From NCBI GenBank assembly GCA_003151115.1, contig PLWS01000002.1, positions 248,001-312,000 on the forward strand: a stretch of 64,000 nt of DNA. The letters run 5' to 3'. The notes beneath the pieces were generated by a model. It saw nothing but the letters and a program-made list of their open reading frames with translations. It was not told where the DNA came from and did not search any database. Position numbers and translations under genes: made by a program. Position 1 is the stretch's first letter. Each line of letters begins with the position of its first letter. The stretch is from Vulcanimicrobiota bacterium. Its GTDB lineage: Bacteria; Vulcanimicrobiota; Vulcanimicrobiia; Vulcanimicrobiales; Vulcanimicrobiaceae. This document shows positions 16,962-39,750 of this stretch, piece by piece.

Positions 16962-17019
16962 CTCACGGTATCTAACCGAAAACGGGTAGATACTGCGAAA
17001 GAGGGCAGATACTGCGAAA
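16962..17019 (+). repeat. Dispersed repeat R1 (degenerate copy)
   Basis: An inverted box TCTCACGGTATCT (16961-16973) is followed by two direct boxes AGATACTGCGAAA at 16988 and 17007. Spacing is 19 bp here, not the 30 bp of the better copies. It starts immediately after the ssb stop and marks the left edge of the repeat-rich accessory stretch. Confidence 0.6.
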
Positions 17020-17037
17020 TACGATTTCCGGTGAACC

Positions 17038-18099
17038 GTGCTTAAGATTATTATTCGAGTCTCTTCGGCTATCTTGGCGATACTGTTTCTCGGCGATGCT
17101 ACATCGGGCGCTACGGAGTCGCCAGTAGATCTCTACAACGCGGCCATAAAAAATATGGCGGCTCTGCCAGAGCCGCCATATGTCGTCTATCGGCTTGAGG
17201 GAAAACCCGCTAGCGCCATACGGCCGCTCCAGGTCAAACTCCGAGTCAATGACAAGCTGGTTTGGTTGGATGGGGATGCCAGCAACGCTAACACGACATG
17301 GTTCGTGGTCCATCGTACAAGCGACTTCACAAGCGCGATCCTCGACGAGAATAAACATCAATATGTCTCGAATCGTTCGTTTTTCGATCCGACTTGGTAT
17401 GGTGCGTATCATGCATTGCATGATGGAATGTTTTTCCTCTATCCTTTTTTCTCAGATCATCAACCAAAACCGCAGCCCATCCCGACTCCGGAACCGTCGA
17501 TTACGGGCGGCCCGAAAACGATAACATCAGTTACGGTTCCGGCGCCGGGCCTTTACAAGGTTCAAGGCACCGGCAGTACGACCAGATCTGCAGTCGCTTC
17601 GGGTAGACAAATGCCATCGCCGGCGCCTGCGCCAATTCAGACCCCTCTAGCCAGCAACTTGAAGACGATCGCGTTTATCAATGTGATGGGGCCAGGGATA
17701 TATAATATTCAAGACCGCGGTGCCGCAGGGTGTTCCAATGGCGATCCGGCGCGAGCGCTGCACCTGACCGCGCGCACATCGCCTGAAAAACATCAGTTAA
17801 GCGACGTGCTGATAGATCTAAATTTCATGCGCTTCTGCATGGTGCGGTTCATCGCACCTGGCAACGCGCAACGCATTGTCGAGTTTCACTACGCTATGGT
17901 CGCAGGTTTTTGGATGCAGACCGACGGAGTGGTAGCAGTGACGTGGCGGGAGCGCGTGTTACCGGATCTGGGGCCACGTGAACCAGGGATGGTCGTTCTG
18001 CGCGAAAAGCCCGAACTGGAGCGACGCTATTGGATTTATCAGCTTGTTATAATCAGCTATCCGACAACCGTGCCTGACAGCGTGTTCGACGCTCCGTAA
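17038..18099 (+). CDS. Secreted protein of unknown function
   Basis: 353 residues from GTG 17038. The N-terminal signal peptide is about 24 residues (RVSSAILAILFLGDATSG). Residues 28-140 form one domain (DLYNAAIKNMAALPEPPYVV ... WYGAYHALHDGMFF). A Pro/Thr-rich linker (about 145-210) leads to a second domain with a Cys pair (GAAGCSNGD, MRFCMVRF) and a conserved-looking end (ELERRYWIYQLVIISYP). Probably periplasmic or exported. It is the first gene after ssb, bracketed by repeat copies R1 and R2. I do not recognise the family. Confidence 0.65.
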   Translation: MLKIIIRVSSAILAILFLGDATSGATESPVDLYNAAIKNMAALPEPPYVVYRLEGKPASAIRPLQVKLRVNDKLVWLDGDASNANTTWFVVHRTSDFTSAILDENKHQYVSNRSFFDPTWYGAYHALHDGMFFLYPFFSDHQPKPQPIPTPEPSITGGPKTITSVTVPAPGLYKVQGTGSTTRSAVASGRQMPSPAPAPIQTPLASNLKTIAFINVMGPGIYNIQDRGAAGCSNGDPARALHLTARTSPEKHQLSDVLIDLNFMRFCMVRFIAPGNAQRIVEFHYAMVAGFWMQTDGVVAVTWRERVLPDLGPREPGMVVLREKPELERRYWIYQLVIISYPTTVPDSVFDAP

Positions 18100-18211
18100 C
18101 TCGCAAGTTCGGGGTGGCGCGCCTCCTCGTATTAGATATTGGGAAACTCCCTTGAATGACAGTTATGACGGCATTCCCGCCAGTGGCGCCGGTGATATGT
18201 GGACTCTGGAC

Positions 18212-18455
18212 GAGATACTGTGAAATGCGGGTGAAAACGGGGAGATACTGTGAAATTCGGTCAAATCGTGAGACAACGCCGTTTTAGCGTTTTAGTGATG
18301 GCTCCCAGTATCTAGCCGAAAAAAGGTTGATATCGGGAAATGGCCTCGTTATTGTGAAATGCGGCGCTCCCGCTCGTAACACGGCCTAAAAAGCCCTGCG
18401 GTAATCGCGTTCTTTGGGAGACAATTCTCGCGGCTGCAATTTCGGGCGTACGTCA
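18212..18455 (+). repeat. Dispersed repeat R2 (long copy, about 244 bp)
   Basis: Boxes GAGATACTGTGAAAT lie at 18212 and 18242, 30 bp apart. They are followed by GTGAGACAACGCC, GTTTTAGC-type octamers and AGTATCTAGCC. A further 130 bp (including CTGCGGTAATCGCGTTC and TACGTCA) is shared with R6 at 26832-27063. An inverted box TTTCACAGTATCT follows at about 18469-18481. No protein-coding gene is visible inside. Confidence 0.8.
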
Positions 18456-18490
18456 GGCAATGGTGATATTTCACAGTATCTAAGGAAAAA

Positions 18491-18521
18491 AAGACCGCGG
18501 TTTTACACCACGGTCTTTTTT
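18491..18521 (+). terminator. Intrinsic terminator
   Basis: AAGACCG-C-GG / CC-A-CGGTCTT forms a stem with one mismatch. It is preceded by an A tract and followed by TTTTTT, so it could work in both directions. It closes the transcription unit of the secreted-protein gene and repeat R2, ahead of the TonB-dependent receptor. Confidence 0.75.
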
Positions 18522-18529
18522 CTTGTGCG

Positions 18530-38036: not shown

Positions 38037-38207
38037 TGGACATACTGCTCCGTGGGATTACTAAACGCTGACTTGCTCGAGGTATTCCAGCGAGCCGCGG
38101 ATTCCTGGCGGTCATACCACTCTGTCCCTGGTTTGGCGTGCGGCTCTTGAACTGAAGCCGAATAGCTGTCGGCTGTCCTGAAAAGATTGATAGGAAATCG
38201 CTAACAG

Positions 38208-38237
38208 AAGGCCCGGCAGTGGCGCCGGGCCTTTTTA
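38208..38237. terminator. Intrinsic terminator
   Basis: AAGGCCCGGC-AGTGGC-GCCGGGCCTT forms a 10-bp perfect stem followed on the plus strand by TTTTT. It lies between the anti-sigma gene end (38273) and the hydrolase operon start (38036). On the minus strand it would end the sigma/anti-sigma transcript, though the T tract is weaker there. Confidence 0.75.
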
Positions 38238-38272
38238 TTGCGCCGCCCCGTTGGCGCCAACGTCCTTCCTCT

Positions 38273-39064
38273 CTAAGGCTTCAGCAGGTAGAGCTTCATC
38301 CTTGTCCCCGTGTTCGGTGCGTGCAGTTCGCGTCGCGGTAAGGCAATGCCGCGCATCGCGGCCTGAATGGCTTTGATTTCCGGTGCGCTAATTCCGTCGC
38401 TCTGCGTCGCCGTCATGACCTGACTACCGTTGCGCCATGCAAAGTGTTCGTGCTTCACGAGTACGGGCTGCCCATTGGACGCCAGACCGTCAGCTTCGAA
38501 CATGTATTTCGGTTGCGGCCCGTCCTGCGGATCGAACGGTTCCGCCATTAAGCCGAACGAACGGCCATCGGCACGGCGATAGCTAAAGGTCACTGACGGG
38601 GATCCGACGCTCCAGGAATGCGTTACCTTCGAGTAGACTCCCGTGGGAGTCATCTGGATTCTTGCGGAGACAACATCCTTCGGCAAGCCGGCCGGCGGAA
38701 CGATTGTGAAACCTACGCGCGACTGCGCGAGTGCAAGCGTTGCGTTACGCGATTGCGAGGACAGCGTCGAAACTAGCGATTTGGGCGCAGGTGGCGGCGC
38801 AATCCCCCCCAGCGCTTGCAAGGCCGCACGATAACGCGCTTCGATGGTTTGAACGAGTGCCGGAGAGATTGAAGGCAGAGCGATGACAAGCATAGCTATA
38901 ATCACGGCGACCGAGATCGCAAGGCGCAGATAACGCGAAGTGTAGCGCGGATGGGCTTTCTGCTGCAAAATTTTTCGTTGGATTTGGTGGAGTGTGACGG
39001 GCGGCGCGTCGATTCCGCGAATCATCGTATTCAAGCCCTCACGGATACGTGCATCACTGAACAT
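38273..39064 (-). CDS. Membrane-anchored putative anti-sigma factor
   Basis: About 263 residues from ATG 39064, which overlaps the stop of the sigma gene by 11 bp; an upstream start at 39112 lies inside that gene. The cytoplasmic N terminus is about 45 residues. One membrane helix (about 47-67, LRLAISVAVIIAMLVIAL) is followed by a periplasmic domain (VGFTIVPPAGLPKDVVSAR, SPSVTFSYRRADGRSFGLMA) like the sensor domains of ECF-linked anti-sigma proteins. Gene order and coupling are the main evidence. It probably sequesters the ECF factor until an envelope signal arrives. Confidence 0.7.
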   Translation of the reverse strand: MFSDARIREGLNTMIRGIDAPPVTLHQIQRKILQQKAHPRYTSRYLRLAISVAVIIAMLVIALPSISPALVQTIEARYRAALQALGGIAPPPAPKSLVSTLSSQSRNATLALAQSRVGFTIVPPAGLPKDVVSARIQMTPTGVYSKVTHSWSVGSPSVTFSYRRADGRSFGLMAEPFDPQDGPQPKYMFEADGLASNGQPVLVKHEHFAWRNGSQVMTATQSDGISAPEIKAIQAAMRGIALPRRELHAPNTGTRMKLYLLKP

Positions 39065-39608
39065 TCGGAAGTACCTCCTCGGAAGAGTGTATGGCCTGCG
39101 TCGTCGTGGCAAGGGCTTTACGCAACGCTCTACGCGCGAGCATCAGGTGGAAACGAACGGTGGACGACGGCAAACCCGTTGCCACAGCGATTTCACCACT
39201 GTTCAGACCCGCATAGTAATGAAGAAGAATCGCACCCCGCTGTACGACTGGAAGTGCGCCAAGCGCATTGTAGAGATCCAAGGCGTCGCTTTGATCGAAA
39301 TGAATTGCACGGTCGGTCAGCGGACCCAGCGTCAGCGTGGAAGGGCGGCGGCGCGCCGCCGTAATCGCCTGGTTGACGATGACCTTGTAGCTCCACGTGC
39401 GGAAAGTGCCGGCATGCTTGAGCATGGGCAACGAACGCGCGATTGAAGCGCACGCCTCTTGCGCGGCATCCTCTGCAAGACCCGGATCGCGAAGTATGCT
39501 GAGCGCTATCCGGTAGGCTTCCGGCCAAACGGCCGTGATAAGACGCTCGAGCGCATCACCACCGGACCGGGCGCTTTCGATAAATCCGATTTCCAGAGTT
39601 AATGGCAC
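39054..39608 (-). CDS. ECF-type RNA polymerase sigma factor
   Basis: 184 residues. Region 2 spans about 20-90 (VWPEAYRIALSILRDPGLAE, DAAQEAC, FRTWSYKVIVN) and region 4 about 110-165 (LPVVQRGAILLHYYAGLNSG, GLPSSTVRFHLMLARRALR). There is no region 1 or 3, as expected for the ECF class. It directs RNA polymerase to a small regulon, usually including its own operon. It is coupled to the downstream membrane protein, its likely antagonist. Confidence 0.92.
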   Translation of the reverse strand: MPLTLEIGFIESARSGGDALERLITAVWPEAYRIALSILRDPGLAEDAAQEACASIARSLPMLKHAGTFRTWSYKVIVNQAITAARRRPSTLTLGPLTDRAIHFDQSDALDLYNALGALPVVQRGAILLHYYAGLNSGEIAVATGLPSSTVRFHLMLARRALRKALATTTQAIHSSEEVLPNVQ

Positions 39609-39689
39609 GTTGGCGGCTCCATGTGGAAGGACCGTTTCCTATATAGACGCCACTAACCGCCCAAGTGTTGGCTGCCCCTTTCTGAAATC

Positions 39690-39750
39690 GAGGTACTGTG
39701 AAATGCGGGCGAAAACGGTGAGATGCTGTGAAATGCGACCAAATCGTTCC
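39690..39750 (+). repeat. Dispersed repeat R7
   Basis: Boxes GAGGTACTGTGAAAT (39690) and GAGATGCTGTGAAAT (39720) are 30 bp apart, with the inter-box GCGGGCGAAAACGGT as in R2/R5, then CCAAATCGTTCCG. The octamer part is missing. It is the only copy outside the 17-27 kb stretch and has the same orientation. Confidence 0.75.

Follow-up and report, generated by a model that had tools for sequence, protein, structure and literature searches.

The closest known relatives of the elements described here are the GInts, islands moved by three tyrosine recombinases together with GinD (ginABCD). In the parts of PMC5385486 drawn on here, ginABCD lies at the 5' end of the element and forms one island with 2.5 to 70 kb of variable cargo; 6 of 11 examined islands have an ssb homologue as their target, where attL overlaps the end of the gene and its product is not altered; the flanking imperfect direct repeats measure 10 to 17 nt, and the 3' ends of the islands are poorly conserved; and the islands excise as circles, with att-site variants arising on excision via heteroduplex resolution and with staggered cuts of 6 to 7 nt. 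Insertion at a gene is also described for casposons, in tRNA-Pro of A. boonei with a 14- to 15-bp duplication and a leader motif (PMC6614799, in part), and cargo islands at a fixed gene end are described for tycheposons (PMC10872708, in part). The DNA analyzed here is a 64,000-nucleotide stretch of the genome of a Vulcanimicrobiota bacterium (GenBank assembly GCA_003151115.1, contig PLWS01000002.1, positions 248,001 to 312,000; the window), in which repeats downstream of ssb probably mark where small mobile cassettes (here measuring 0.6 to 3.9 kb) begin and end, as their left and right ends; the cassettes would all have been inserted the same way round, at the final codons of ssb. The original prediction, which described a dispersed family of intergenic repeats, is thus likely to have missed the main point, namely, that these sequences bound mobile cassettes that insert site specifically at ssb.

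Nineteen matches to the box sequence GAGATACTGTGAAAT (three or fewer mismatches) were found in the window, compared with 0.80 expected from shuffles (largest count in 100 shuffles, 4). All seven places at which repeats had been predicted (R1 to R7) were present, and all lay between genes, although they represent left ends, right ends, and the junctions of the two instead of a single repeat family. In the right end, two direct boxes 30 bp apart are followed 18 bp on by the core GTGAGACARCGC, which directly precedes one or more octamers. In the left end, TGYTGTCTCAC stands directly after an octamer and is followed by an inverted box and two direct boxes (at +28 and +47 in well-preserved cases). 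The 30-bp spacing predicted for five copies was recovered at 18212, 22781, 24676, 26832, and 39690 and was 29 bp in R3 (22099). R1 (16962) is the other half of the structure, with an inverted box and then boxes 19 bp apart; an inverted box had been noted before, but its role is that of the start of a left end. The sequence said to follow the boxes, GTGAGACAACGCC, was found at 18212, 22781, 24676, and 26832 and as a variant at 22099, but not at 39690. As predicted, every right-end box faces one way. An extra left-right junction, beyond R1 to R7, was found at 26908 to 27157. The copy next to ssb consists of a left end alone, the inner copies consist of a right end, octamers, and a left end, and the last (39690) is a cut-off right end, which is the appearance of a head-to-tail row of inserted elements. 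Six elements (0.17 to 3.9 kb) were counted between 16956 and 27074, and a longer, more degraded part extends to 39747 (Table 1).

The octamers that had been reported after the boxes are real, but they are copies of the ssb 3' end. Their consensus, CGTTYTRR, equals the last 8 bp of ssb (Phe-stop). The ssb gene in the window ends in CGTTTTAG, within CCG TTT TAG (Pro-Phe-stop), and in other genomes it ends in CGTTCTGA, CGTTCTAG, or CGTTCTAA, with the octamers varying likewise. Some octamers stood alone, and others formed ladders with as many as 14 units. A scan that permitted any base at positions 5, 7, and 8 recovered 69 distinct ladders with 178 units, counts that include a few plain non-octamers, such as CGGTATCT. 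A TTY codon followed by a stop could be read in 98 of the 133 units of right-end ladders, in which positions 7 and 8 were AG in 58 units, GA in 37, AA in 14, and GG, which turns the stop into TGG (Trp), in 3. This is the pattern that would be expected of former working ssb ends and not of random decay of one unit. The reading frame of ssb continues to its own stop codon in the octamer, and its product is unaltered. Two to four octamers after ssb, with no left end, were seen by eye in six relatives (G014, G049, G050, G054, G128, and G134; G000 denotes the genome of the window, other G numbers the genomes of relatives, C a contig, and L an extracted stretch), and these look as scars would.

The spacing of the ends was examined in 46 candidate right ends from 31 loci. 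Among right ends with a good box, the box-to-core spacing was 18 bp in 32 of 38 (17 to 19 bp in all 38), and the box-to-box spacing was 30 bp in 28 of 34 (29 to 31 bp in all 34). The bases before GTGA varied by element group (AGATACT, AGTTAGG, ATTCAAT, ACTTAAT, and AAATGG) with spacing unchanged, and the spacings of 30/18 bp and 28/19 bp were kept across genera while the box sequence changed. Terminal left-end boxes were closer to the internal boxes of their own genus than to those of other genera. This covariation was reached by 26 of 40,320 permutations when all of the loosely thresholded candidates were used (30 left ends, many of them false) and by 2 of 720 permutations with hand-picked ends and boxes. 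Since the spacing is fixed while terminal and internal boxes change together, the boxes are inferred to be sites of one DNA-binding recombinase. One GTTAGG-like right end (L046, position 10115) stood among GATACT-type ones in the array of G001, so box type goes with the element. The constant spacing had originally been attributed to protein binding or a conserved RNA, of which protein binding is the better half, given the constant spacing and the variation in box sequence across genera. The RNA half is unsupported: Rfam models gave no match in the window at gathering thresholds, and three right ends folded no better than shuffles (z of 0.96, 0.23, and 0.04). A hairpin fold was obtained for the left end (z of -3.65 and -4.04 versus shuffles) and is explained by its two opposed boxes. 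No tRNA was found in the window.

The genome of the window (2.56 Mb in 8 contigs, 98.5% complete) contained 12 one-mismatch box matches and 7 BLAST matches, all at C6:266-288 kb, and no match to the reversed control of the box pattern. The copies, described earlier as dispersed, are therefore confined to one locus, a 23-kb stretch that starts at the last codon of ssb. A search of the genome and its relatives, as had been proposed, returned this one locus and the same anatomy in many genomes of the family, rather than one recent local duplication with no conserved spacing elsewhere. The relatives are assemblies named Candidatus Eremiobacterota, a phylum that is now Vulcanimicrobiota in NCBI; the host family consists of little-known soil bacteria, and the phylum is seen here mostly as metagenome assemblies. 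The upstream flank comprises acrB (12627-15983, minus strand), rpsF, and ssb. In genomes of the same genus, this flank was conserved and the sequence past ssb was not.

Across the phylum sample of 149 genomes (99 in the family and 50 outside), the left-end pattern was found at 9 places in 8 genomes, all within the family, with none in the reversed control; 8 of the 9 places lay directly after ssb (the ssb end of G058 was identified by eye), and the ninth was an inner copy. The right-end pattern was found in 20 of the 99 family genomes (control, 0), and a looser version lacking the octamer was found in 25, with 2 control matches and several weak matches. Tandem octamers occurred at 66 places in 22 genomes, all within the family, and their reversed control at 15 places, 9 of which were among the 50 genomes outside it. 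The anatomy downstream of acrB-rpsF-ssb thus recurred in many family genomes and in none of the 50 others searched. Right ends in G128 lay about 16, 67, and 73 kb beyond ssb. A scan of a genome-contig collection returned 32 stretches, many from unrelated bacteria; the latter are taken here as chance matches, of which about 15 were estimated.

Single cassettes were shared between species in different surroundings. The NmrA/DUF2867 cassette was 97.4% identical between the window and G001, a pair whose ssb regions were 86.3% identical; in G001 it is flanked by a left end and a right end, and in the window it occupies another place in the row. The match of the sigma-factor cassette to G001 (88.6%) stops at the right-end core, and G001, G003, and G006 contain the GAF and hydrolase cassettes again, arranged in other orders. 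Recent exchange of single cassettes would be the simplest reading of these alignments. The open reading frames (ORFs) of array regions represent diverse cargo, as judged from the best 25 families of each scan. Sigma-factor genes recurred among the cargo carried by arrays in different genera (L046 [G001:C73], 11053-11607; L058, 6040-6603; L127, 11429-12115; and the window, 39054-39608). Outside the array, the window holds two arrays of 15-bp units similar to GCATTGCGCATCGGC (3735-3909 and 4670-4862), which are apparently unrelated to the one at ssb.

Table 1. Features of the proposed cassette array downstream of ssb (positions in the window)
Feature	Position	Strand	Description
ssb, target gene	16524..16955	+	Pfam SSB, E 1.6e-32; last 8 bp (16948-16955) CGTTTTAG = octamer
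Cassette 1, 1.3 kb	16956..18279	+	Left end, one ORF (17038-18099) without Pfam family, right end
Left end of cassette 1 (R1)	16956..17022	+	TGCTGTCTCAC, inverted box, direct boxes at +28 and +47
Right end of cassette 1 (R2)	18212..18279	+	Box-30-box-18-GTGAGACAACGC
2 octamers	18280..18295	+	CGTTTTAG
Cassette 2, 3.9 kb	18296..22165	+	Degraded left end 18296-18362; TonB-receptor-like ORF 18717-22013; right end 22099-22165 (R3)
8 identical octamers	22166..22229	+	CGTTCTGA
Cassette 3, 0.6 kb	22230..22848	+	Left end 22230-22296; small ORF ending at 22741; right end 22781-22848 (R4)
2 octamers	22849..22864	+	CGTTTTAG CGTTCTAG
Cassette 4, 1.9 kb	22865..24743	+	Left-end remnant; ORF 23060-24463 (minus strand); right end 24676-24743 (R5)
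14 octamers	24744..24860	+	Every unit TTY+stop, at 8- or 9-bp steps
Cassette 5, 2.0 kb	24861..26899	+	No left end seen; TetR (-), membrane-like ORF, DUF5655 ORF; right end 26832-26899 (R6)
1 octamer	26900..26907	+	CGTTTTAG
Gene-less 167-bp remnant	26908..27074	+	Left end and right-end core; middle 84% like 18389-18455
2 octamers	27075..27090	+	CGTTCTAG CGTTCTAA
Left end of next element	27091..27157	+	Fur and TonB receptor downstream
NmrA/DUF2867 cassette	31675..33241	+	97.4% identical to G001:C73:3007-4573
GAF-domain cassette	33302..34963	-	88.7% identical to block adjoining right end in G001:C43
Two alpha/beta-hydrolase genes	34994..38053	-	Common to arrays of G003 and G006 at about 91%
Sigma-factor cassette	38213..39747	-	Gene 39054-39608 (Sigma70_r2/r4); 88.6% identical to G001:C73:10214-11746
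Right end cut off at terminal core (R7)	39690..39747	+	

Compared with GInts as portrayed in the cited parts of that report, the arrays are alike in insertion at the ssb end, the unaltered product, and a repeat that varies. They differ in that small integrase-less cassettes stand in arrays, with ordered multi-box ends and octamer ladders. The imperfect repeat measures 8 to 9 nt (CCGTTYTRR) here and 10 to 17 nt in GInts. The ginABCD operon was not found in the arrays of 21 genomes, inside which there was no Phage_integrase match. Casposons, from the portions of their description used here, likewise insert at a gene 3' end with target duplication, but their duplication is longer and they have their own Cas1-type integrase (no Cas1 search was made here). 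Tycheposons, in the portions consulted, use a tRNA target and encode a tyrosine recombinase, whereas the target here is ssb and no recombinase was found in the arrays.

In the mechanism proposed, each insertion would use the 8- to 9-bp CCG-TTY-TRR (Pro-Phe-stop) as its cross-over or staggered-cut site, and SSB would keep its essential tail because insertion uses this sequence. A recombinase would bind the 15-bp boxes (30/18 bp in the right end and 28/19 bp in the left end) and join the end to an octamer. New cassettes would enter at ssb and push older ones outwards, producing the head-to-tail array, and extra octamers would be the scars of earlier insertions and losses. A tyrosine-type enzyme, proposed on the ground that tyrosine-type GInts share this target, is given about an even chance, and a DDE transposase a distinctly smaller one. 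The ssb target and the overlap-like octamer favor tyrosine chemistry; the ladders and multi-box ends favor DDE.

Two sets of array-region ORFs were scanned for the recombinase, 72 hand-picked from the genus and its neighbors (A1) and 74 of 148 (A2). Two of the 74 matched an IS3-like transposase, and a recombinase was otherwise not found in array ORFs among the best 25 of 105, 81, 40, and 34 families, where a rare family could be hidden. In 20 stretches around tyrosine-recombinase matches, the box search returned one two-mismatch match, no pair, and no core. In the search for a helper phage, exact core patterns of the ends were absent from viral contigs, and phages and plasmids gave no match. 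Xer is unlikely to be the enzyme, as Xer groups do not track box types. The best Xer-like recombinases fell into two groups (G000:C2:53847, G001:C100, and G002:C11 versus G003:C1, G005:C14, and G006:C103) that were only about 40 to 44% identical, which suggests Xer replacement within one genus whose SSB proteins are >90% identical. Operons with several tyrosine recombinases were present in G002, G003, G128, and G133, with no matching ends. Those of G128 (L271, G128:C5, 8369-13424) and G133 (L264, G133:C251, 12008-15987) comprise large recombinase-like genes and a small protein, are reminiscent of ginABCD, and lie neither beside ssb nor beside such ends. Three consecutive tyrosine-recombinase-like genes were seen in G002 (L167, G002:C4, 4172-6890), with a similar run in G003 (L170, G003:C1, 4276-7659), which we take to be the recombinase-in-trio arrangement. 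With no recombinase found in any array, the enzyme is likely to act in trans; the simplest reading is that it does so or that a helper is absent from these assemblies.

Several observations weigh against the proposed mechanism. G013, G033, and G058 each had only one Phage_integrase match, which grouped with Xer-like proteins, and no recombinase gene examined adjoins the boxes. Precise excision by a tyrosine recombinase would alone leave no extra octamers, yet more than one octamer was present in 28 of the 50 ladders at right ends and in 13 of the 19 at ssb ends, which slippage or a cut-and-paste enzyme would explain more simply. Sharing of sequence between terminal and internal boxes is more usual in DDE transposons than in the arm sites of tyrosine recombinases. 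Two right ends lie away from ssb, near tmRNA (G005) and tRNA genes (G110). Draft assemblies make up most of the genomes, and degradation is seen in many ends, so that part of the array may be immobile today. The right end in G005 (L054, G005:C7, 7175-7237) is of the same kind and starts roughly 190 bp past the tmRNA gene (6629-6983); a tmRNA gene is another typical integration target. In G110, the right end (L182/L212, G110:C7:784451) is located some 5 kb downstream from tRNA-Ala and has a tRNA-like stretch (TTCGAATCCC) after it. A left end was found at neither site.

Tn7-like transposons carry several transposase boxes per end and insert site specifically behind a conserved gene, and Tn7 makes a 5-bp duplication. 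The cassettes may, with lower probability, be DDE-type transposons of the Tn7 or Mu kind that chose ssb as a target, with an 8-bp target duplication and with imprecise loss by end joining producing the ladders. Several same-facing boxes per right end, as putative transposase sites, a terminal box that resembles the internal ones, and element-free octamer ladders resembling scars are consistent with this. The repeat of 8 to 9 bp differs from the 5 bp of Tn7, however, and the internal left-end boxes face the terminal one. TniQ was found in 3 of 21 element-bearing genomes and not in the other 18, the Mu/TnsB C-terminal domain (Mu-transpos_C) in 4 of 22 (3 over the cut-off), and rve in 4 of 10, and none of these matches lay within arrays, apart from the two IS3-like ORFs. 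A Tn7-like element of the same genome as the window was rejected as the source, since its end boxes differ. This element (L142, G000:C4, 1-8451) encodes TnsA, TnsB, a TniB-type AAA ATPase, and two TniQ proteins, and its contig begins with TGT and box-like repeats of other sequence.

It is improbable that the locus is a decaying island at ssb that now has no specific enzyme, with blocks swapped by homologous recombination in the ssb flank and the repeated ends. Many ends are truncated or missing (39690, 22865, and 24861), no recombinase was found in the arrays, and conserved flanks would permit exchange, but the orderly ends, fixed spacings, and ssb-end octamers in many genera would be left unexplained, and the NmrA cassette, 97.4% identical in two species, has different neighborhoods in them. 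A chromosomal integron, or a CALIN (an attC cluster that has no integron-integrase), is very improbable. The arrays resemble integrons in their head-to-tail cassettes of one or a few genes in one orientation, a single landing site, and a recombinase outside the cassettes, with no integrase nearby; they differ in that the anchor is an essential gene, ssb, instead of attI beside intI, that cassettes are bounded by two distinct ends, left and right, that the right ends do not fold, and that the octamer CGTTYTRR does not fit the core GTTRRRY (judged by motif, not by an attC model). Regulatory repeats, as transcription-factor operators or a structured intergenic RNA, would account for the conserved 30-bp spacing and the intergenic position but are just as improbable, considering the single locus, the ties to ssb-end copies and cassette borders, the right ends without fold or Rfam match, and an orientation that is fixed whatever the gene strand.

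Insertion of site-specific cassettes at ssb by a recombinase acting on two multi-box ends remains the preferred reading. As they do not fit the definitions of GInts (a gin operon inside the element), integrons, or Tn7, these integrase-less, ssb-anchored cassette arrays are set apart from the named families and are called here a variant of site-specific ssb-directed mobile elements. The literature searched contained no description of integrase-less ssb arrays; insertion at ssb was found in the GInt paper (PMC5385486). Tentatively, the arrays may represent gene capture comparable to that of integrons but built from other parts, namely, a dedicated landing pad at the ssb end, two multi-box ends of unlike build, a recombinase in trans, and a record of earlier insertions kept as an octamer ladder of relict ssb stop codons. 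If true, this would be another bacterial way to stack single genes at a protected site, with the ssb 3' end as the landing pad. The octamer ladder is unusual in that its units are still constrained as a functional gene end is, by which past insertions could be counted and perhaps dated. Together with GInts, the arrays would make ssb ends a recurrent target, and the combination of ssb, octamers, and boxes would offer a simple handle for finding cargo, such as sigma factors and hydrolases, in other genomes.

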